Shown here: one piece after another, positions 3,335-16,582 of the stretch | How the letters are laid out: each line of letters starts with the position of its first letter | How positions within the stretch are numbered: position 1 is the first letter of the stretch | Notes under the pieces: generated by a model | What the model was told of the DNA's origin: nothing | What the model saw: the letters and a program-made list of their open reading frames with translations, nothing else | The model's database searches: none | Made by a program: the position numbers and the translations under genes | NCBI RefSeq assembly: GCF_000191045.1 | Contig: NC_015185.1 | Span: forward strand, 750,501-814,500 | Length of the DNA: 64,000 bases | Source of the DNA: Desulfurobacterium thermolithotrophum DSM 11699 | GTDB lineage: Bacteria > Aquificota > Aquificia > Desulfurobacteriales > Desulfurobacteriaceae | Reading direction: 5' to 3'

Positions 3335-3748
3335 TTAACTTTTTTTAGCTTGAGGCTTTTTTCTTGCTTTAAGCCATCTTTTCTTTGATTCTTCTGCCTC
3401 TTTTTCTATCTCATCCCAATTAGGAATTTCTTCCTCTGTTGCAGGTGGTGCCATTTCTTCAACTTGTATAAGACATCCAGCTTTGGGACATGCTCTTACA
3501 CACTCTCCACAGTATATACATAAGTAAGGGTTATAGTGGAATTCTCTTGAACCATCTTCATTGTAAGTAAACCTTATAGCTCCTGGAGGACAGACTAACT
3601 CACACTTAGTACAGAAAATACAAAGTTCTTTTTTATAAACTATATTTCCCCGATAGTTTGGCGGAGGTGGTGAAGGTTCAAAAGGATACTGATGAGTTGC
3701 AGGTTTTTTAAAGAGATTTTTTAAAGACTCTATAAACATATCCTTCAT
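3335..3748 (-). CDS. echF: Ech-type hydrogenase, polyferredoxin subunit (NuoI-like)
   Basis: Electron-transfer subunit of a group 4 membrane-bound [NiFe] hydrogenase. 137 residues. Two complete 4Fe-4S motifs are visible: CIFCTKCELVCPPG near residue 45 and CIYCGECVRACPKAGC near 77. The C-terminal 40 residues are charged and lysine-rich (ending KKPQAKKS). It is the last gene of the operon, 18 bases after echE, and ends at the terminator. It should pass electrons between ferredoxin and the small subunit EchC. The EchF name rests on order and composition, since the six genes match Ech A-F one to one. Confidence 0.85.
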   Translation of the reverse strand: MKDMFIESLKNLFKKPATHQYPFEPSPPPPNYRGNIVYKKELCIFCTKCELVCPPGAIRFTYNEDGSREFHYNPYLCIYCGECVRACPKAGCLIQVEEMAPPATEEEIPNWDEIEKEAEESKKRWLKARKKPQAKKS

Positions 3749-3766
3749 AACTTCCTCCTAAATCAC

Positions 3767-4852
3767 CTATCTTGCAGTACACGATAGACACGGGTCAAAA
3801 CTAATTACTGTTGCTGGAACGTCTGCATAATCCATTCCAATAAAGAGCTCTTTCATCACAGGAATGTTTGAAAACGTAGGAACTTTTATTCTAAGTCTAT
3901 CAAGAATTAATTTCTTACTTCCTTTTAGATAATAAAAGAGTTCTCCTCTTGGTGCTTCTATTCTAACAAAAGCTTCACCCTCAGGAAGGCCTTTAACCGG
4001 AACTTTTATGTCTCCCTCTGGCATTCCATCTAATAAATTAAAAATCATTTCTAAAGAGTTTAGAGTTTCTTCTGCCCTTACCATATTTCTTGCGTATATA
4101 TCTCCATCTTTCATTGTAATTAGCTTATAGCCTACTTCTTTAAAAGGTAGATAGTTAAATTCATTTCTTGCATCTGTTGCAAGTCCTGAAGCTCTAGCAG
4201 GAGGACCAACAACATTTAATTCTCTTGCCATTTCAGGAGTAATAACTCCTATCCCTTTCCATCTAAGTTTTATAGTGTAGTCGTTTTCAAAAACATCCTT
4301 TAGCCATAAACATCTTTCCTGTAGATCTTTCAATTTTTCCCGTAATTCTCTTTCTACTTCAAGCGAAAGATCTCTATTTACTCCTCCTACTGTAGCATAG
4401 TCAAATTGAATTCTGTTTCCAGTAACAAGCTCTTGGAGCTCCATTACAAGTTCTCTATCTCTGAAGGTATGCATAAAAAGATTTTCATATCCTGCAACTT
4501 CTGCTAGGTGTCCCATAGCAAGCAAATGTGAGTGAACACGATCAAGCTCGCTCACTAAAAGTCTTAAATATAAAGCCTTCTTAGGTACCTCTATCTCCAT
4601 TAATCTTTCAACAGCTGTTACATATCCTAAGGTATGAGAAATAGCACAGAGTCCGCAAACTCTTGCAACAACGTAACCTACCTGTGTATATTTAAACTTT
4701 GTCATACAAGCTTTTTCAATTCCTCTATGGACATATCCAACGTCAACCTCAACATCAACTATTTTTTCATTTTCTGTTTGAAAGACAAATCTTATTGGTT
4801 CTGGAAGTGCTACGTGCTGACTACCAAATGGAATGGTAATTCTATTTCCCAT
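3767..4852 (-). CDS. echE: Ech-type hydrogenase, large (Ni-Fe) subunit
   Basis: Catalytic large subunit of a group 4 [NiFe] hydrogenase, homologous to NuoD. 361 residues. The N-terminal nickel motif is RVCGLC near residue 64 and the C-terminal one is DPCLSCTAR. The chain stops immediately after the arginine of that motif, so there is no C-terminal peptide for a maturation endopeptidase to remove. This is known for some group 4 enzymes such as CooH. All four nickel ligands are cysteine here, unlike the linked hydA gene. It starts 1 base after the echD stop. Confidence 0.92.
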   Translation of the reverse strand: MGNRITIPFGSQHVALPEPIRFVFQTENEKIVDVEVDVGYVHRGIEKACMTKFKYTQVGYVVARVCGLCAISHTLGYVTAVERLMEIEVPKKALYLRLLVSELDRVHSHLLAMGHLAEVAGYENLFMHTFRDRELVMELQELVTGNRIQFDYATVGGVNRDLSLEVERELREKLKDLQERCLWLKDVFENDYTIKLRWKGIGVITPEMARELNVVGPPARASGLATDARNEFNYLPFKEVGYKLITMKDGDIYARNMVRAEETLNSLEMIFNLLDGMPEGDIKVPVKGLPEGEAFVRIEAPRGELFYYLKGSKKLILDRLRIKVPTFSNIPVMKELFIGMDYADVPATVISFDPCLSCTAR

Positions 4853-4853
4853 C

Positions 4854-5198
4854 TTAGCCTCTCCTTAAAGGTGCTTTTGGACTATCAGGATCAAGAAAAA
4901 GTCCCTTTTTAGCTCCTTCTACATTAAGACCTAAAAGATCTGCAAGTTCCCATTCAGCTATCCACGCAGAAGGAATTATGTAAGTAATAGTAGGAATTTC
5001 ATCTTCATAACTTGCTTCAGAAGTAAAAACTGTAAAAACTTCCTCTTCACCATATTTAGCAAAAAACCATTTAAGTTCAACTTTTCCACCTAAATCAGTT
5101 CCATTTACAGTAACAAAGTGCCATTCATCAGGATTGTAAAAATCTTTAATGGCTCTTCTTACATCTCTTAAAGAAACCTTAATCTCTTCTACTTTCAT
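4854..5198 (-). CDS. echD: Ech-type hydrogenase, NuoC-like subunit
   Basis: Small hydrophilic subunit homologous to the 30-kDa (NuoC) subunit of complex I. Start chosen at ATG 5198, with AGGAGGTGCT directly upstream, giving 114 residues (MKVEEIKVSLRDV). The open frame goes back to 5225 without a ribosome site. Seen: a compact alpha/beta pattern and PTITYIIPSAWIAEWELADLLG, matching the family's conserved C-terminal stretch around WxExExxDLLG. It overlaps the end of echC by 20 bases, which suggests translational coupling. Confidence 0.82.
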   Translation of the reverse strand: MKVEEIKVSLRDVRRAIKDFYNPDEWHFVTVNGTDLGGKVELKWFFAKYGEEEVFTVFTSEASYEDEIPTITYIIPSAWIAEWELADLLGLNVEGAKKGLFLDPDSPKAPLRRG

Positions 5199-5727
5199 AG
5201 CACCTCCTGGTACCTTCAGCGACAATCTTTCTTCTGTTAAGCTGTTTTCCTAATAGATATTCAAGCTCCTCAGTACCTGTACACTTTCTTGTAAGCTGAA
5301 GGTCTTTCTTCTTCTTTTCTAATATCTCGAGAGCTCTAACTACTCCATCAATAATATTTTCAGGTCTTGCTGCACATCCTGGAACGTAAACATCAACAGG
5401 AATAAACTTATCAACGCCATTTTCCACATTATACATTCCTCTAAAAACGCCTCCTGTACAAGCACAAACACCAACAGCCACAACAACTTTTGGTTCAGGC
5501 ATTTCCATATAAAGTCTTATTAATCTTTCTCTTGCTCTCTTAGTTACTGGTCCAGTAACCAAGAGAATATCCGATTGTTTAGGATTTCCTCTGTTTAAGA
5601 TTCCAAATCTTTCAATATCGTACTTTGGAGCAAGACATGCCAAAATCTCAACATCACAACCATTACAACTTCCAGTATTATAGTGGAGTATCCAAGGAGA
5701 CTTTGTTCTATACTTTTTTAGATTCAT
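5179..5727 (-). CDS. echC: Ech-type hydrogenase, small subunit (NuoB-like)
   Basis: Fe-S small subunit of the group 4 hydrogenase, carrying the proximal cluster. 182 residues. Cluster ligands visible as CNGCDVE near residue 22, VGVCACTGG near 89 and PGCAARPE near 120. The C-terminal 40 residues are rich in lysine and arginine. It sits between the membrane subunit echB (1-base gap) and echD (20-base overlap). Confidence 0.9.
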   Translation of the reverse strand: MNLKKYRTKSPWILHYNTGSCNGCDVEILACLAPKYDIERFGILNRGNPKQSDILLVTGPVTKRARERLIRLYMEMPEPKVVVAVGVCACTGGVFRGMYNVENGVDKFIPVDVYVPGCAARPENIIDGVVRALEILEKKKKDLQLTRKCTGTEELEYLLGKQLNRRKIVAEGTRRCYESRRD

Positions 5728-5728
5728 C

Positions 5729-6571
5729 TTAAGCCCTCCAGAGTGCTAATAGCATCAAGTTAATAACAACTAAAGGAATTAAAATGTACCAGTGAAAAGA
5801 AACCATTTGTCTAAATGTCACTCTTGCAGTAGAGTTATCGATAAGATTAACTATAAAGAAGGATAGAACAACTAAAATTGCTCCAAGCAAGTAGTTGCTT
5901 CCAGCAAAGAGAAAAACAAAGAAAAACGCATAAATGTACTCTATCCACTTTGCTGTATATACAGCTTCATAAAACTTGCCTGAATACTCTATTTCAGGTC
6001 CACCTATGATTTCTTGGTGAGCTTCAGCAATATCAAATGGAGATTTCTTTAAAACAGCTGGAAGAGAAAGAATGAATGCAATAAAAACAAGAGGAAGCGA
6101 TAAAATAGGAACGGTGTCTGTCTTAAGAAGTTCTGAAACCTGAAAAGTTCCTGTTACAAGGTATAATCCTGCTGCAGTAAGAACAAAAATAGGTTCGTAA
6201 GCAAGCATATGAATAAGTTCTCTCATAGCTCCAACTACAGAATATGGAGATCTTACGCTAAATCCTCCTACCACCAGAAAGGCAAGTGAAAGAACGTGGA
6301 AGAATATGGCTATTAGAATATCTCCTCCTGAAAGAAGGACATAAAGAGAAAACCATGTTCCAACTAAATACATAATTCCCATAAAGGCATGGAAGGAGTG
6401 TATCATAATGGATCTTTTATCCATAAGCTTAAGAAAGTCATAAAAGGGCTGAAGAAGTGGAGGACCTTGACGATTTTGCATTCTTGCTCTCACAATCCTT
6501 TCAAATCCGTAAATTAATCCCCCTATCACTGGAGAAAGTAACGTCAAAATCAGAGAGAGTTCCTTGCTCAT
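5729..6571 (-). CDS. echB: Ech-type hydrogenase, membrane subunit (NuoH-like)
   Basis: Integral membrane anchor homologous to complex I NuoH/HyfC. 280 residues with about eight hydrophobic segments. Conserved sequence blocks: ERIVRARMQNRQGPP near residue 24, KKSPFDIAEAHQEIIGGPEIEYSG near 175-200, and the acidic loop that follows. These are the hallmark of the proton-channel/quinone-site subunit. It overlaps echA by 4 bases (ATGA). Confidence 0.9.
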   Translation of the reverse strand: MSKELSLILTLLSPVIGGLIYGFERIVRARMQNRQGPPLLQPFYDFLKLMDKRSIMIHSFHAFMGIMYLVGTWFSLYVLLSGGDILIAIFFHVLSLAFLVVGGFSVRSPYSVVGAMRELIHMLAYEPIFVLTAAGLYLVTGTFQVSELLKTDTVPILSLPLVFIAFILSLPAVLKKSPFDIAEAHQEIIGGPEIEYSGKFYEAVYTAKWIEYIYAFFFVFLFAGSNYLLGAILVVLSFFIVNLIDNSTARVTFRQMVSFHWYILIPLVVINLMLLALWRA

Positions 6572-8424
6572 ACTAAACCACCTCCCAGAACAAGAGTAAG
6601 AACAAAGAGAGCAACAGCAGTAGTTTCGATAAATGGCTCTATTTTAGATACACAGAAAAAGTTATAAGTTCCAATGTTTAAAGGTATATTCTCTCCACAA
6701 GTATATTCGTAAACTTTGTCTGCCTTAAAGTGAACAAAGTAGGCAAAGATAGGAACTACCATAAGTAAAATAATAGCTCCCACAATTTGCCAACCGTAAA
6801 GCTGAGAAACAGGAGTAATAAGTGTTAAACCTGAAGCTTTAACGTTTGCAAATTCGCCAGAGATATCCTTCACTATAAGGTTAATGAAGTCTGAGGAAAG
6901 ATGAGCAATAAAGAGAGAGCCAATAATAGTAAAGAGCACATATGCACCTGTTGTAATCATGTATAAGAACGGTAATTTTTCAGGCTTGAAGCTTACAAAT
7001 TCCCCTCTTTTTCTACTAATAACTCCGATAACTTTAAAGTAAAGAAGAGCAAGAATAACTCCACCTATGGTGATAAAGATTATTGAAGCTATATAAGCTC
7101 CATGAGAAAGAAACTTTGAAGCTTCTTCTAAAGTAATCCACTTAGCAATGAAGATACCATAAGGCACAAGGGTCATACTCATAAATCCAAGTGCAATGAA
7201 GAAAACAGTAATAGGTGCTTTTTCTATGAGTCTTCTCATCTGTTCTATGTATTTAACATGGAATACTTTTTCCATGATTCCAGCTTCGAGGAATAAAAGA
7301 GCTTTAGCAACCGCATGGAAAAGTATTAAAAGAAGAGAAGCAAGAACTGCTATCGAACTTCCCATGCTTGCAGTTAACATCATCAGACCAAGTAAAGAAA
7401 TCGTTGAATAGGCAAGAATTCTCTTAAAGTTATCCTGAGTAAGAGCTAAAAGACCGGCGGCTACAAAAACAAAACCTGTTGTTGTAATAAGAAGTTTTGC
7501 AAGTAGTGTTCCCTTTATCACAGGAGATATTCTAAGAATTAAGTAAGGAGCAATCTTTACCATTGTCGCAGAGTGAAGAATTGCACTAACCGGAGTAGGT
7601 GCAACCATCGCTCCTAAGAGCCACTTATGGAAAGGCATTTGAGCTCCTTTAACAAGAGCAGAAATGGAAAGAAAACCTAAAGGTATCATTGAAATAGCGG
7701 CTGCATTTATTTTCAAGATATCTGTGAAGTTGTAAACGCTATAGTACTTGACAGCAAACAAAATACCTATGAGTATAGCTATACCACCTACTTGGTTCAT
7801 CCAGAGAGCTCTAATAGCATTCTTAATCGAAATTTCGTCCCATCTAAATCTTATAAGAATGTAAGAAGCAAGTGTTGTTGTTTCGAATAAAGCAAAAAAC
7901 CACTCTAGATTATTAACCGAAACAGCAAAGTTCATTACTCCCAAGAACCATAAAAGAATGGCTACAAAGCGATTTTCTCTTTCAACATTTTCTTGTTCCA
8001 TATACTTTGTTGCATAAATACAGATAATTGAACCAACTGTAGCTACTATTAAATACATAAAAGCAGTTAATCTATCTACGTAAATAGAAGGAGTTATTGA
8101 GTGAGGCAGGATAAGAAGAACCCATGTTAGGAGGAAAATTTGGGCAATTGCTAAAACCGAAACTAAGAAGCTTCTAAACTTAAATCCTTGGTAAAGAAAG
8201 TAACCTAATAGGAAATAGTCAAAAACTGTTATACCAAGTTCTACCCAGTGTGGAGTTTCTATAAAGTATGGAAGATCGCTACTCCACACCATATAAGCAA
8301 GATACGTTAAGATCGGTAATGACAGGAAAGTTAAAACTTGTCTAAGTCTGTGATTTGGAGATAAAAATACTGCTAATGCCAAAATCCACGGCAAGATGAT
8401 AAGAAGAGTAACCGCTTGCTCCAT
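6568..8424 (-). CDS. echA: Ech-type hydrogenase, antiporter-like membrane subunit (NuoL-like)
   Basis: Large proton-pumping subunit related to Mrp antiporters and NuoL/HyfB. 618 residues, mostly hydrophobic with some 14-16 membrane segments. Core signatures: glutamate-bearing segment WFFALFETTTLASY near 172, KGAQMPFHKWLLGAMVAPTPVSAILHSATMVK near 260-290, and the lysine/histidine segment FHAVAKALLFLEAGIMEK near 368. It starts 47 bases after the readthrough end of hydA, preceded by a GGGGG ribosome site, which makes the soluble and membrane hydrogenases one transcription unit. Confidence 0.9.
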   Translation of the reverse strand: MEQAVTLLIILPWILALAVFLSPNHRLRQVLTFLSLPILTYLAYMVWSSDLPYFIETPHWVELGITVFDYFLLGYFLYQGFKFRSFLVSVLAIAQIFLLTWVLLILPHSITPSIYVDRLTAFMYLIVATVGSIICIYATKYMEQENVERENRFVAILLWFLGVMNFAVSVNNLEWFFALFETTTLASYILIRFRWDEISIKNAIRALWMNQVGGIAILIGILFAVKYYSVYNFTDILKINAAAISMIPLGFLSISALVKGAQMPFHKWLLGAMVAPTPVSAILHSATMVKIAPYLILRISPVIKGTLLAKLLITTTGFVFVAAGLLALTQDNFKRILAYSTISLLGLMMLTASMGSSIAVLASLLLILFHAVAKALLFLEAGIMEKVFHVKYIEQMRRLIEKAPITVFFIALGFMSMTLVPYGIFIAKWITLEEASKFLSHGAYIASIIFITIGGVILALLYFKVIGVISRKRGEFVSFKPEKLPFLYMITTGAYVLFTIIGSLFIAHLSSDFINLIVKDISGEFANVKASGLTLITPVSQLYGWQIVGAIILLMVVPIFAYFVHFKADKVYEYTCGENIPLNIGTYNFFCVSKIEPFIETTAVALFVLTLVLGGGLV

Positions 8425-8471: not shown

Positions 8472-9779
8472 TCATTTTCGAATAATGCTTATAAGTTTGT
8501 TATCTTCTCCACCAAACTGGTGGACTGCACAAGCAATTCATGGGTCATAAGCACGAATGAGCATTTCCGCTCTTTTCCTTAACTCTATATCATCCACATC
8601 AGGAGAAAACTCTATAAGATCTGCTAAATCCTTTTCTATTATTGCCTGTAACTGAGCAGTTGGAGTGATTATATTTGCTGAAATACATCTTCCTGAATCA
8701 TCAAATGTATACCTATGATAAAGAGTTCCTCTTGGTGCTTCTTTAACCCCATAACCTGTTCCAGCTTTTGGCTTTATTTCCACTTCCCTTTTAAACGGAG
8801 TAGAAGCAATAAGTTCCTCTGTAATTTCAATTCCTTCAAAAGCAAGTTCAAGCATTTCAATTGCTCTTGCAACATTTGCATGAAGAGAGTTATAAGAAGG
8901 AAAGGATGTTTTTAAAGTTGAAATTACTTCTTTTGTTTCTGGTCTTAAGTTATTAATATGATGGTTTATTCTTGCGAGAGGACCTATAAGGAAAGGTTTT
9001 CCTTTAATAGTTGAATATTTTGCTGTACTATAGGTAGAAGTTTTCTCTTCTATAAAGAGTTCATATTCTTTCTTTGTAAAGAGAGTTCCATCAGAAAGTC
9101 CAAGACTATCTCCTAAAAGAGCAAATTTATCACCGTTTATGCAAAGAGATATAGGATGTTCCTTATTAAATTTTGGATAGTCAAAAGAATCAAATAGGGA
9201 AATGGTTGCTTTTATTTCTGGAATAGCTTTATAGAGGTCTTCCTGAACTTTTTGAAGCTGCTCTCTTGAAGGGACAGACTTAAAGCCTCCAGGAAGTATA
9301 TTTTCACCATGGATAGTTTTTCCACCAATCAATTTCATAATTTTATTTCCAATTTCCTTTAGAAGAAAACCTCTTTTTACAACGTTTGGATAGTCTTTTG
9401 CCATTGCAATAGTTGAAGGGTACCCCATGTAATCAGGAAGTGCTAAGAAGTAAAGATGTAAAGCATGACTTTCAAGACACTCTCCAACTACTAAAAGTTT
9501 TCTTAGAAGTTTTATCTCAGGAGTAATCTCAACCTCAAAAGCATTTTCAATTGCTGATATGGAAGCAAGTCTATGAGAAACATAACAAATTCCGCAGATT
9601 CTTGAAACAATTTTTGGAATTTCAGTATAGAGTCGTTCTCTTGTTATATACTCAAAAAATCTTGGTCCTTCTGTAAATCTTAGTTTTATTTCTTTTAATT
9701 TTTCATTTTCAAAAACAATATTGACAGCACCATGACCTTCCACTCTTGTAAGATGATTTATATTAACCTCTCTTTTCAT
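8472..9779 (-). CDS. hydA: Sulfhydrogenase-type [NiFeSe] hydrogenase, alpha (large) subunit with predicted selenocysteine
   Basis: Catalytic large subunit of a cytoplasmic group 3 hydrogenase. A plain reading stops at TGA 8538-8540 after 413 residues, ending RAYDP. The TGA falls precisely where DPCxxCxxH needs its first cysteine. Continuing the frame gives IACAVHQFGGEDNKLISIIRK and a second stop at 8472, so residue 414 is predicted to be selenocysteine (DPUIACAVH). Total 435 residues. The first Ni motif is RICGIC near residue 61. The 15 residues after the motif histidine are the expected peptide removed by a maturation protease. A SECIS-like hairpin follows the TGA. The start overlaps hydD by 17 bases. 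Alternative: a truncated gene, unlikely because the motif and frame remain perfect past the TGA. Confidence 0.88.
8508..8524 (-). promoter_or_regulatory. SECIS-like stem-loop for selenocysteine insertion in hydA
   Basis: On the minus strand, 13 bases after the in-frame TGA, lies a perfect 6-bp stem (TCCACC / GGTGGA) with a 5-base loop AGTTT. Bacterial SECIS upper stems sit about this far from UGA and carry a GU in the apical loop, which is present here. The stem also encodes hydA residues, as bacterial SECIS elements do. Confidence 0.75.
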
Positions 9780-10548
9780 TTAGCACTCCTTTTGAGAAGA
9801 TTTCAGAAAGTCTTTCTTGTGCTTGTTTTCCTCTAAAAACTTTAATAAAGTTAGCAGCATCTTTAGTTGATAGTCCTTCTTCTTTTAAGATAGAAATCAT
9901 TTCCTCATAATTTGGAAAATCACAGTCTCCTCTACATCCTTGACAACCAACTCCAGCAGATGTACATGGAGCTCCACACCCAGCATAAGAAATAGGTCCT
10001 TGACAAGGAATTCCTTTGAGAGTTAAACACTCAGTTTCAGAAAGTTTACACTCGTGACAAACAGGAATTTTAGGAAAGAAAGGCTTTACTCCGTTTAGTA
10101 AGAACGCAACTGCATAAACAAACTGCTTCTTATCCAAAGGACATCCAGGAAGTTCATAATCAACTTTTACAATCTCTGAAACAGCCTTTGGTTTTGATAC
10201 ATTTACAGGAAATTCAGTAGTTCCATAGACTTCTTTTAGCATTTCTTCCAAAGTAACTTCATCATTTCTTTGAGCCTGAACTCCTCCATAGCAAGCGCAA
10301 CTACCAATAGCAACTAAAATTTTTGAAACTTTTCGTCCCTTTTTAACTTTTTCTTCATCAAGATCTGTTGTTACAGAACCTTCGACAAAGAGAATGTCAA
10401 ATTCTTCGAAAGAATTGTTGTCTTGAGCCAAAGGAAAATAACAAAACTCTACTTTACCGAGTAATTTGTATAAAGCATCTTTACAATTTAAAATCTCACA
10501 CTGACATCCTGAACAACCTGTTAATCCCATAATTCCTATCTTCACCAT
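9763..10548 (-). CDS. hydD: Sulfhydrogenase-type hydrogenase, delta (small) subunit
   Basis: Fe-S small subunit of the soluble hydrogenase. 261 residues. Proximal cluster cysteines in GLTGCSGCQCEIL near residue 11, GSCACYGG near 94 and LPGCPLDK near 135. A cysteine-rich second half (CHECKL near 165, GCGAPC near 190, VGCQGCRGDC near 200) can hold two more 4Fe-4S clusters, as in group 3 small subunits. It shares its start base with the last base of the hydG stop (1-base overlap) and overlaps hydA at its end. Confidence 0.9.
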   Translation of the reverse strand: MVKIGIMGLTGCSGCQCEILNCKDALYKLLGKVEFCYFPLAQDNNSFEEFDILFVEGSVTTDLDEEKVKKGRKVSKILVAIGSCACYGGVQAQRNDEVTLEEMLKEVYGTTEFPVNVSKPKAVSEIVKVDYELPGCPLDKKQFVYAVAFLLNGVKPFFPKIPVCHECKLSETECLTLKGIPCQGPISYAGCGAPCTSAGVGCQGCRGDCDFPNYEEMISILKEEGLSTKDAANFIKVFRGKQAQERLSEIFSKGVLNEKRG

Positions 10549-11432
10549 TAGATCATCTCCGGAAGATTTTTTGTGTCCCAGAGCGGAAAGATTGGACCAT
10601 CAACACATGCAAACTTATAGCCTATCTGACAATGGCCACACTTTCCTATTCCACACTCCATTTTTCTTTCCAAAGAAACAAAAACTTGACTTTCAGGATA
10701 ACCATTTTTTATAAGCTCCTTACCTATAAACTTGTATGCAACAGGCGGTCCGCATACGGCAACGTAAGTTTCCTTTGGATCAAGGCTAACTTCAGGAATT
10801 AGAGCTGTAAGAAGACCTTCTCTATCTGCCCACTTTCTATCTTCTTCGTTTTCAAATTTATCAAGAATATAAAGACACTTAATATCTTTTCTCTCTTTTA
10901 ATCTTCTTAATTCATCCTTATAGAGAACGCTTTCATAATTTCTTGTCCCATAGAGAATATACACATCTTTGTAAAGATGTCTCTTATCAAGGATATACCA
11001 GATGAGAGAACGAAGTGGTGCAATACCAAGCCCTCCAGCAATTATTAAAACATTATGTCCTTCCATTATCTCTACAGGAAAACCATTACCGTAAGGGCCT
11101 CTTATTGCAACTAAGTCTCCTGGCTGCATCTTGTGAAGTACTTCTGTTTTTCTTCCAACTTTTCTAACAGTTAATTCTACTGTTCCCCTTCTTGTCGGAG
11201 ACGAACAAATGGAAATTGGAATTTCTCCACCTTTTGGAACAGTTAACATTACAAATTGACCAGGAATATGATTCCATTCTTCATTAACTTTTTCATCAAG
11301 AAAAACAAATGAAAATTTCTTGTGGTCTGGAGCTAAATCTTCTACATCCGTTATTAGAGCTTTTTCGGGCTTAAATGGATTAACTGGCAGAGGTTTCGTT
11401 AATAACTTCTCCAGACTTTTCTTCATTCTCAA
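10548..11432 (-). CDS. hydG: Sulfhydrogenase-type hydrogenase, gamma subunit (FAD/NAD(P)-binding)
   Basis: Flavoprotein subunit exchanging electrons with NAD(P)H. 294 residues. Ferredoxin-reductase fold: FAD-binding barrel with the VRKVGRKTEVLHKMQPGD block, RGPYGNGFP near residue 112, nucleotide-binding GGLGIAPLRSLIW near 133, CGPPVAYKF near 228 and a C-terminal 2Fe-2S-like motif CGIGKCGHCQIG near 263. It belongs to the HydG/AsrB family. Its start overlaps hydB by 53 bases; a later in-frame start (MKKSLEKL, 2 codons in) is also possible. Confidence 0.9.
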   Translation of the reverse strand: MRMKKSLEKLLTKPLPVNPFKPEKALITDVEDLAPDHKKFSFVFLDEKVNEEWNHIPGQFVMLTVPKGGEIPISICSSPTRRGTVELTVRKVGRKTEVLHKMQPGDLVAIRGPYGNGFPVEIMEGHNVLIIAGGLGIAPLRSLIWYILDKRHLYKDVYILYGTRNYESVLYKDELRRLKERKDIKCLYILDKFENEEDRKWADREGLLTALIPEVSLDPKETYVAVCGPPVAYKFIGKELIKNGYPESQVFVSLERKMECGIGKCGHCQIGYKFACVDGPIFPLWDTKNLPEMI

Positions 11433-12465
11433 CTCCTCTTAGTTTTTTAATCGTCTCCACTATGCTTATCTTGGCAGGACACTCAGCAGAACATCTTCCA
11501 CAACCTACACATCCTAACTTTTCTATTTGATAAGGATAGCCAACAAACTTATGGTAATAACGATGTTTAAATCTATCTGAACGTTTTGGTTTAAAGTAGT
11601 GTCCACCGGCAACAAGAGAATAGTAAGGATATTGACAGGATGTTGTAAATTCTATCCTTGATACTTTTTTTCCGTCAAGATCAGGAACATCAACTGCTGT
11701 ATAGCAAAAGCACGTTGGACAAACATTTGTACATGTTCCACATCCAAGACACCTTTTTGCTTCCTCTTCCCATACTTCCGAGTCATACTCAAGTTCTATT
11801 ACTTGTGATATTCTTCCAAGATCTGGAAGTTTTTCTAAGTCAAAAGATAGTTTCTTCTGAGATGTACTTTGCTTATAAAGAGTAAGATTTTCTTTTGTTA
11901 TTTCTCTAAAAAGTTCTTTTAAGGAAAGAACAATTTCATCACCTTTAGGACTTCCAATAGTTACGAAATAATCATTTCCTATATCTGTAAGAAAAAGATC
12001 CCAATTTGTACCATCTGGGAAAGCTGTTCCTGTGGAAAGACAGAAGCAAAACTCATCTGGTCTGCAGGATAAACCTATTAAAATTGTCCTCTTTCTTACC
12101 TCTAGATATCGTGGATCAGGATTTTCCTCTAAATAAATTGAATCAAGAATAGAAATTCCATGAAGATCGCAAGAATGAATTCCAAAAATTACTTGATCTA
12201 CAGGTGTAAATCTACTTTCAAAGTCAAGAGTATCTACGTTATAAGAAAATCTTTTTCTCCTATAAGGTACTAAAAATTTTTTTGGAGGTAAAATTGTTCT
12301 TGTATAGTTAAATTCAACTTCAGATGTATCTTCTATAATATCAAAGTAAAATTTTTCTTCCTTTTTTTTAGGAGCAATTAAAACACCAAATTTTTTTAAA
12401 CCTTCAAGGAATTGTTGAGCATTTTCTTTTGGAAGTATCTTAGCTTTATCTATGTGGAAATCCAT
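11380..12465 (-). CDS. hydB: Sulfhydrogenase-type hydrogenase, beta subunit (4Fe-4S)
   Basis: Electron-transfer subunit of the HydB/AsrA family. 361 residues. N-terminal half without known motifs apart from SCRPDEFCFC near residue 155. The C-terminal half carries two ferredoxin motifs, CLGCGTCTNVCPTCFC near 240 and CVGCGRCSAECP near 318. It is the first gene of the ten-gene operon. Start ATG 12465 has GGAGGTG 8 bases upstream and a sigma-70 promoter about 50 bases upstream. Together with HydG it suggests a group 3b NAD(P)-linked enzyme, with possible sulfur-reducing side activity as known for archaeal sulfhydrogenases. Confidence 0.88.
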   Translation of the reverse strand: MDFHIDKAKILPKENAQQFLEGLKKFGVLIAPKKKEEKFYFDIIEDTSEVEFNYTRTILPPKKFLVPYRRKRFSYNVDTLDFESRFTPVDQVIFGIHSCDLHGISILDSIYLEENPDPRYLEVRKRTILIGLSCRPDEFCFCLSTGTAFPDGTNWDLFLTDIGNDYFVTIGSPKGDEIVLSLKELFREITKENLTLYKQSTSQKKLSFDLEKLPDLGRISQVIELEYDSEVWEEEAKRCLGCGTCTNVCPTCFCYTAVDVPDLDGKKVSRIEFTTSCQYPYYSLVAGGHYFKPKRSDRFKHRYYHKFVGYPYQIEKLGCVGCGRCSAECPAKISIVETIKKLRGVENEEKSGEVINETSAS

Positions 12466-13641: not shown

Positions 13642-14634
13642 TTAAGAAAGGAAGTCAATAACCTTAAGAGAGAGTGTTTGAAAAATCATCCAGACAAAGA
13701 ACAAAACTCCCATGTTAAAGAGGATAAACTTAGCTAAAACAAACAGTTGAGCTATATGAAAGCTCTTTGTTTTCTCGTAACTTCCAACATCCTGCTTAAC
13801 TTCTCCAAAAATACTCTCTATCAGTCCTCTAAACCTGTAAATTTCATCAGATTCTAAAAGCTCTTTGCATTTAAGCCTAATCTCAGATTTAATTCCCTTC
13901 CTTAATGTTTCTCTCACCTTTATGTAAGGCTTTAAGCCTACTAACAGAACAAGCTCAATAAACTTAATGCTGTCATAAGCTTTGTCTCCTAAAAATGGCT
14001 TTCCTTTCAAAGCTCTCCATATAAATCCCCTTTCGTTTAACCACCTAACTATTTTCTCTCCAAGTTTCACTTCCGAAGCGTAACTCTCTCCAGGTAATGC
14101 AGTAAGAATGAACCTTTTTCCATCTTTTAGATGAACGCTTAATACAACAACTTTAACGTGGCTTTTTACCTCCTTTATCTCTTTGCCTCTTAGAATTTTC
14201 AATGGATAAATCTCATTGTATTTGAAGCCAGTTCCATCTATTATCAGAAATCTTAGTTCTTTATGATACTTCCCTAAGAGTCTTCGAGAGACAAAGTTCA
14301 GAAAATCTACAAGGAGAATGGAAGGTAGTTGCTTGAGTCGGTAATAATAGGTTGAAAAATCAGGAATATTCTCTCTTCCAAATATCTGAACTGCCAAATA
14401 TTCAAGGTCTCTGAATGATAGGTTCCAGGCTACTTGGAGGAAAAGAAGGGTAAGAATTATCTCGTCAGGGTATTTCTTGGGTCTTCCTCTTTTGGTTTTA
14501 AAAGGATATAAATATACCAGTACAGCCTGTCCTCTCCGGTTCATGTATGTTTTTGATAGGTTGAGTACTTTGTGGAAATTTAGTCTTTTCGCTTTCATAC
14601 CGGAGAGGATAGGCTTTTTTCTTAATTTTGGCAA
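13642..14634 (-). CDS. DDE transposase of IS A1
   Basis: Cut-and-paste transposase of the IS4/IS5 superfamily, 330 residues as read. Catalytic acids are probably the D in LIIDGTGFKY (near 130), the D in FLGDKAYDS (near 213) and the E in GLIESIFGEVK (near 273). A basic N-terminal part (KAKRLNFHKVLNLSKTY) would bind the ends. It starts at TTG 14634, just inside the right repeat, or possibly ATG 14598. There is no stop codon inside the element: the frame runs out through the left inverted repeat (QTLS) and ends 9 codons into host DNA. The core is almost identical to the copy at 54.2-55.2 kb. Confidence 0.85.
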   Translation of the reverse strand: MPKLRKKPILSGMKAKRLNFHKVLNLSKTYMNRRGQAVLVYLYPFKTKRGRPKKYPDEIILTLLFLQVAWNLSFRDLEYLAVQIFGRENIPDFSTYYYRLKQLPSILLVDFLNFVSRRLLGKYHKELRFLIIDGTGFKYNEIYPLKILRGKEIKEVKSHVKVVVLSVHLKDGKRFILTALPGESYASEVKLGEKIVRWLNERGFIWRALKGKPFLGDKAYDSIKFIELVLLVGLKPYIKVRETLRKGIKSEIRLKCKELLESDEIYRFRGLIESIFGEVKQDVGSYEKTKSFHIAQLFVLAKFILFNMGVLFFVWMIFQTLSLKVIDFLS

Positions 14635-15500: not shown

Positions 15501-15583
15501 AGGTGCCTCAGCACCTGTTGAAGTTCAGATAGAAGGTGGACACCCTAAAATAACCTTTGAATCCCAGAAGGAGGTGTCCACCG

Positions 15584-16582
15584 ATGAAACAATTGAAAAG
15601 ATTCAAAGGAACATCCCTCCATATATCAAGCACAAATACAGCATTCAAAGAAACCCTGAAAGAAGGAAGAAGAGTAAAAAAGAAACTTGACCTAACAAAA
15701 GACAGAAATGTTAAAAGGAGACTCAAATGGATAGAGTATTACCACAAAACAGGCAACGCCAGAAAAACATGCAGATACTTTGGCATCAGTCCAACAACCT
15801 TCTACAAGTGGAAAAAAAGATACGACAAGTACGGGATAGAAGGACTCCAAGACAGAAACAAAAGACCTCATAAAGTAAGACAACCCCAAACAGAACCTGA
15901 AATAGAACACATCATCGTCACAATAAGGGAAAAATTCCCAACCTGGAGCAAAGAAAAGATAGCAGCCTTCATGGAAAGATACCTAAATGTAAAAATATCA
16001 TCCTCTACAGTTTACAGGGTTCTCAAAAGACACGGACTAATAGAAAGAACCTGGAAACTAAAAAGTACCTACAAGAGGAAGAAACAGAAAGGGAAAAAGA
16101 ACCGCACCAGAAAAGGACTAAGAGCAGACAAACCAGGAACAATCCTCATGGACGTTAAATACCTCTACTGGTGCGGTAAAACCTTTTACCAGTTCACGGC
16201 AATAGACAAGTTCACCCGAATAGCATTTGCCAAGGTTTATTCTACAAAAAGCAGCAGGAGCGGAAGAAGGTTTTTTGAAGAACTTGAAAAATTTCTTCCC
16301 TTCAAGATAGAGAAAGTTCAAACGGATAACGGGAGCGAATTTTTAGGGGAGTTAGACGAATATCTTAAAAGAAAAGGGATAGAACACTACTTTAGTTATC
16401 CGAAATCTCCCAAGACTAATGCGCATGTAGAAAGGTTTATTCAAACGACAGAAAGTGAACTATGGATGATAGAAGGAACAGAACCGACTGTTGATGAGAT
16501 GAATAAAAAACTTTTTGAGTATTTAAAGATTTACAACTTTCTTAGACCCCATCACTCTTTAAATTACAAGACTCCCTGTTGA
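15584..16582 (+). pseudogene. IS B1 transposase, truncated by IS B2
   Basis: IS481/IS3-like integrase-fold transposase. Start ATG 15584 with AGGAGG upstream. Helix-turn-helix region (ARKTCRYFGISPTTFYKWKKR) near residue 50, second HTH (KISSSTVYRVLKRHG) near 135, then the rve core with D in LMDVKYLYW, D in VQTDNGSEF and E in NAHVERFIQTTESE. The frame meets B2 after LNYKTP and ends artificially at 16582, losing the last 20 or so codons; these lie at 17699-17767. Confidence 0.88.

Follow-up and report, generated by a model that had tools for sequence, protein, structure and literature searches.

Whether the TGA codon that interrupts the hydA frame of Desulfurobacterium thermolithotrophum, a thermophilic, anaerobic, chemolithoautotrophic, H2-using deep-sea vent bacterium, is a stop or a codon for selenocysteine (Sec) is the question raised by this locus. 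The gene lies in a stretch of 64,000 nt (the window, to which all coordinates refer) of the genome of strain BSA, which comprises 1,541,968 bases in one contig (PMC3368423). On comparative sequence evidence, HydA is almost certainly a selenoprotein, namely a group 3b [NiFeSe] hydrogenase derived by one Cys-to-Sec conversion, in which the UGA at codon 414 would be decoded by SelB and Sec-tRNA(UCA) with the help of a hairpin (Table 1).

Table 1. Features of the hyd locus and its surroundings in the window.
Feature	Position	Strand	Basis and remarks
hydB, iron-sulfur subunit (beta)	11380..12465	-	closest PDB chain: beta of P. furiosus sulfhydrogenase 1 (E 4e-86)
hydG/hydC, FAD and NAD(P)-binding subunit (gamma)	10548..11432	-	closest PDB chain: gamma of P. 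furiosus sulfhydrogenase 1 (E 7e-75)
hydD, small subunit (delta)	9763..10548	-	closest PDB chain: delta of P. furiosus sulfhydrogenase 1 (E 6e-54)
hydA, catalytic large subunit	8472..9779	-	435 aa with Sec414 (predicted); NiFeSe_Hases Pfam match; closest PDB chain: alpha of P. furiosus sulfhydrogenase 1
In-frame UGA, predicted to encode selenocysteine	8538..8540	-	14 Desulfurobacteriaceae genomes have UGA, 6 sister sequences have TGC/TGT
SECIS hairpin UCCACC-AGUUU-GGUGGA	8508..8524	-	starts 13 nt after UGA; near-frozen codons in 14 genomes; lost in Cys relatives
Codons for 15-residue tail after His420, QFGGEDNKLISIIRK	8475..8519	-	sequence; contain most of SECIS hairpin
Six-gene Ech-type group 4 hydrogenase operon	3335..8424	-	ORFs, family matches; 47 nt downstream of full-length hydA

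The hydA frame and its neighbours

On the minus strand, an open reading frame of 413 codons runs from an ATG at 9779 to the TGA at 8540-8538, straight after ...RAYDP, and the same frame continues beyond it for 21 further codons, IACAVHQFGGEDNKLISIIRK, ending with a TGA at 8474-8472. The first TGA takes the place of the first residue of the C-terminal nickel motif, DPU-IACAVH. RAYDP-TGA-IACAVH aligns on RAYDP-C-ISCSVH of P. furiosus sulfhydrogenase I alpha, and the TGA thus stands for the first Cys of this motif. An initial annotation, made from the DNA letters, had located the TGA at the first Cys of DPCxxCxxH, which is borne out by both the frame and the alignment; it also gave the correct end of the readthrough, at 8472, but left the last seven residues out of its tail. 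HydA has all four nickel-site ligands of an [NiFe] hydrogenase, with C62 and C65 in the N-terminal motif RICGIC and the predicted U414 as well as C417 in DPU414-IAC417-AVH420. The predicted protein therefore bears the feature by which [NiFeSe] hydrogenases are recognized, a Sec as the first residue of the C-terminal nickel motif DPU414xxC417xxH420, and natural [NiFeSe] enzymes carry their Sec at this same position (PMC11212049).

Translated with the standard code, HydA ends at the TGA at 8540-8538, and were this a true stop, a sequencing error or the sign of a pseudogene, the protein would be truncated before its nickel motif and be inactive or serve another role. Such a truncation is extremely improbable, since the TGA recurs in 14 genomes with both motif and tail still conserved past it, HydA is an abundant protein of strain HR11 under low H2 (PMC12724263), and no Cys-type group 3b paralogue was found in the genome, the next best match being a large subunit of 36% identity with an intact frame. 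A sequencing error or a recent mutation, which the initial annotation had named as possible refutations, is ruled out by the retention of UGA in the 14 genomes.

The gene order also bears on the end of hydA. The gap between hydA and the Ech operon, whose large subunit retains Cys (FDPCLSCTAR), is 47 nt for full-length hydA versus 113 nt for a gene ending at the UGA. Strain HR11 is described as having this arrangement too, with 51 nt between Hyd and Ech (PMC12724263), which suggests that the HR11 record already reads through the UGA and that a database may carry the Sec form; the truncation of hydA by automatic annotation, as expected in the initial annotation, may not apply to this record. The open frame that follows hydA was located in nine Sec relatives: its start ranges from an 8-nt overlap with full-length hydA to a gap of 2 nt, about 60 nt past the UGA, which argues against a stop at the UGA and fits translation of the predicted tail. 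The frame in question (L012:2807, L016:2813, L018:2804 and similar) encodes ~160 aa and stands where the Ech operon lies here. Two transposase-like open reading frames, recognized by eye, lie near the hydrogenase cluster at 13642-14634 and 15557-16582 of the window.

Selenocysteine machinery and the hairpin after the UGA

The genome encodes selA (637 bits), selB (443), selD (373) and a tRNA-Sec (80), all above curated cut-offs, and the anticodon of the tRNA is TCA, i.e. tRNA-Sec(UCA); the search for selA, selB, selC and selD proposed in the initial annotation thus found all four. The 6-bp stem that had been described 13 bases past the TGA, with GU in its loop, was confirmed exactly at 8524-8508, where UCCACC (8524-8519) pairs perfectly with GGUGGA (8513-8508) around the loop AGUUU. 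FdhA and SelD of the same genome also have an in-frame UGA and comparable hairpins. That of FdhA, UGGCC-GGUCU-GGCCA at 13 nt, has the spacing and the 5-nt GU-containing loop seen in HydA, and that of SelD is GC-rich, has the loop GGUC and lies slightly nearer to the UGA.

When the protein was held fixed and codons were redrawn from local usage, a perfect stem of at least 6 bp arose in 1102 of 20000 resamples (5.5%), and an equal fold stability was reached in 1.35% of 2000 such resamples of the hydA hairpin zone. The hairpin as proof by itself in one genome was dropped in view of the former rate; taken in one genome alone, it is only marginally beyond chance and no more than suggestive, and the case is carried by the comparison among genomes. 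A scan of the window with Rfam at gathering thresholds gave no SECIS match, only tmRNA.

The hairpin UCCACC-AGUUY-GGUGG(A/U) is present 13 nt past the UGA in 14/14 Sec genomes. Across the 14 Sec hydA genes, 170 columns are invariant in amino acid and seven in codon, and five of these seven lie in the stretch of 10 codons that follows the UGA (P 4.5e-6, hypergeometric test). The wobble base of a Phe codon that varies between TTT and TTC sits in the hairpin loop, and the sole change in the stem, found in L026, where GGT replaces GGA, breaks the outermost pair. No compensatory base change (covariation) is found because the stem is near-identical in all 14 genomes. The minimum free energy of the UGA region is -10.7 to -15.7 kcal/mol in the Sec genes compared with -2.6 to -6.1 for the four g7 genes that encode Cys, and the hairpin is missing from the Cys hydA of both g7 (4 genomes) and family f5 (2 genomes).

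Residue 414 is predicted here from the DNA, and the UGA might be read through by near-cognate suppression as Cys, Trp or some residue other than Sec. The chance of this is exceedingly slim in the face of a complete Sec machinery, a SECIS-like hairpin with the geometry of that of FdhA, and homologues with Cys at this exact column. Decoding as Sec would agree with three features that mark a bacterial selenoprotein and that are found for HydA: Sec machinery, a UGA aligned with Cys in conserved coding sequence, and a downstream hairpin. Together with the conservation of the UGA in 14 genomes and the Cys counterparts, they support the earlier proposal that HydA is probably translated through the UGA as Sec.

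Group 3b assignment, descent and proposed mechanism

The best PDB matches of all four subunits are chains of P. furiosus sulfhydrogenase I (E 7e-84 for HydA), which makes the enzyme group 3b by composition, as the initial annotation had surmised. P. furiosus sulfhydrogenase I (HydBGDA, group 3b; PDB 9nez, 9e15) has the same four kinds of subunit, and its alpha chain is 36% identical to HydA over 416 residues; it has Cys at the nickel ligand (RAYDPC-ISCSVH), whereas Sec is predicted here (RAYDPU-IACAVH). The HydG/HydC subunit matches the Pfam families FAD_binding_6 and NAD_binding_1, and from these domains the enzyme is predicted to be NAD(P)-linked. HydA scores below the NCBIfam cut-offs for the ShyA/HydA equivalogs (NF040828, 358.6 of 700 bits; NF040832, 313.6 of 880 bits) and would thus be group 3b by best match while standing outside the curated equivalogs, as expected for a distant member.

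Among 136 genomes of the phylum, HydA with TGA was found in 14 Desulfurobacteriaceae, with TGC or TGT in four genomes of g7, a sister genus within the same family, and with TGC in two of the related family f5; remoter homologues (33-37% identity) are free of an internal stop. The alignment with homologues that the initial annotation had called for places a Cys at this same column in the six sister sequences, and these relatives with a Cys codon, which it had regarded as potentially refuting, form separate lineages (g7 and f5). The Cys HydA of g7 (L022-L025) is 58-60% identical to the present HydA and that of f5 (L154, L155) 50%; both share RICGICYVSH and differ in their TGC/TGT and TGC codons, respectively, and in the absence of the hairpin. 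In the tree, Sec HydA forms one clade with support of 89/89 in the full set, and the clade is separated from the other named groups with support of 95/92 when two long branches are left out. A placement of g7 inside either Sec subclade was rejected (AU p about 1.4e-4), and a Sec-to-Cys reversion in g7 is not favoured by this test. Genus g7 retains SelB and tRNA-Sec, and its Cys is therefore not explained by missing machinery. The simplest reading would be that Cys gave way to Sec once, at the root of the Sec clade, within Desulfurobacteriaceae. In the full set, HydA of f5 (L154, L155) clusters with that of g7, a genus from a different family, with support of 94/93, and an origin of f5 HydA outside all Desulfurobacteriaceae was not rejected (AU p 0.10). 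A Ser-to-Ala difference at residue 416 (8532-8534 of the window; UIAC versus CISC) is shared by the whole Sec clade and occurs in none of the Cys relatives compared, and F35, L102, E188, I265, Q421 and G424 of HydA likewise differ between the Sec clade and the Cys relatives.

Sec insertion, nickel ligation, tail cleavage, the physiological role and any kinetic benefit are what we infer from these data, along the following lines. SelB with Sec-tRNA(UCA) would decode the UGA at codon 414, guided by the hairpin 13 nt downstream within the coding sequence, and Sec414 would occupy the terminal nickel-ligand position that ordinary enzymes fill with the first Cys of DPCxxCxxH. The tail of 15 residues beyond His420 would, by analogy with the family, be clipped by a maturation protease after nickel insertion; two genes for proteases of the HycI/HyaD type are present in the genome. 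A soluble four-subunit NAD(P)-linked group 3b enzyme would thereby be an [NiFeSe] hydrogenase. The SECIS would have arisen mostly in the codons of a disposable C-terminal tail and, since most of the hairpin lies there, could plausibly have evolved at little cost to the mature protein.

The likely role of the enzyme would be H2 oxidation feeding NAD(P)H to CO2 fixation, above all at low H2. In the proteome of strain HR11, all four Hyd subunits (HydBCDA) were up 10.5- to 17.7-fold at 2 uM H2, and the authors assigned the Hyd enzyme to NAD(P)H supply without mention of selenium (PMC12724263); the strong induction of the operon at low H2 makes this role testable. In E. coli Hyd-2, Sec at this residue eases the inhibition of proton reduction by H2, and Sec has been linked to O2 tolerance (PMC11212049). 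More tentatively, the Sec enzymes may form a separate group 3b [NiFeSe] lineage in which one Cys-to-Sec change and a SECIS in tail codons gave vent autotrophs an NAD(P)-reducing hydrogenase that performs better at low H2 or under oxidative stress than the Cys form.

Other hydrogenases with selenocysteine

The genomes of 84,980 species were scanned for FDP/YDP-TGA-I-(A/S)-C-xx-H, giving 101 stretches, of which 80 were listed. Among these 80 of 101 matches are Desulfobacterial 3c-like and group 1a-like enzymes, so labelled from the family matches of six examples and the motif, and three chance matches; HydA of the present type occurs, among the same 80, only in Desulfurobacteriaceae. The [NiFeSe] HysA of group 1a (Desulfovibrio, Desulfomicrobium) has Sec at the same residue, and the group 1a-like matches listed end in UIACAVH or UIACSVH; unlike the present HydA, HysA belongs to a periplasmic two-subunit uptake enzyme of another group and with other partners. 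Sec is also found at this residue in Desulfobacterial MvhA/VhuA (3c), where a hairpin is visible soon after the UGA in the matches listed, and in the Vhu/Fru enzymes of methanogens (3c/3a). In contrast to HydA, these are tied to heterodisulfide reductase or F420, have the motif DPUISCATH and score low against it.

It is very improbable that HydA is a selenoprotein of one of these known [NiFeSe] groups (1a Hys, 3a Frh or 3c Mvh/Vhu) and hence nothing new. DPUIACAVH does recur in group 1a-like Sec enzymes among the matches listed, and the sulfhydrogenase alpha equivalog cut-offs of NCBIfam are missed as given above; however, for all four subunits P. furiosus sulfhydrogenase I is the best match and outscores Mvh, Frh and Hys by a wide margin, the partner subunits (NAD(P)-binding and HydB) form the 3b set and, among the matches listed, full-length Desulfobacterial Sec MvhA/VhuA-type proteins reach only ~130-170 bits against this HydA compared with 630-860 for other Desulfurobacteriaceae.

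In the HydDB table, [NiFeSe] variants are confined to groups 1a, 3a and 3c, with none for 3b (PMC5037454), and a 2026 review describes [NiFeSe] enzymes as exclusive to sulfate reducers and methanogens (PMC13188914). The genome paper of T. ammonificans assigned the Hyd operon to group 3b and regarded HydA as unique to the family, Sec in HydA being unmentioned (PMC5441870). A search that covered the open-access literature yielded no paper in which Sec is connected with group 3b. The predicted Sec group 3b enzyme in Aquificota would widen both the HydDB table and the statement of the 2026 review. Group 3b is soluble and NAD(P)H-linked and has a heat-stable model in P. furiosus, and a natural Sec member together with the Cys sisters of 58-60% identity in a sister genus would provide a ready pair on the effect of selenium at the nickel site. 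Group 1a-like DPUIACAVH subunits were also seen in the metagenome-assembled genomes L056, L084 and L129 (as well as L066 and L081), seemingly beyond sulfate reducers and methanogens, under the titles Ca. Subteraquimicrobium carltonvillense, Bacterium BMS3Abin01 and Actinomycetes bacterium; L056 is above the NF033181 cut-off, and L084 and L129 are below it.
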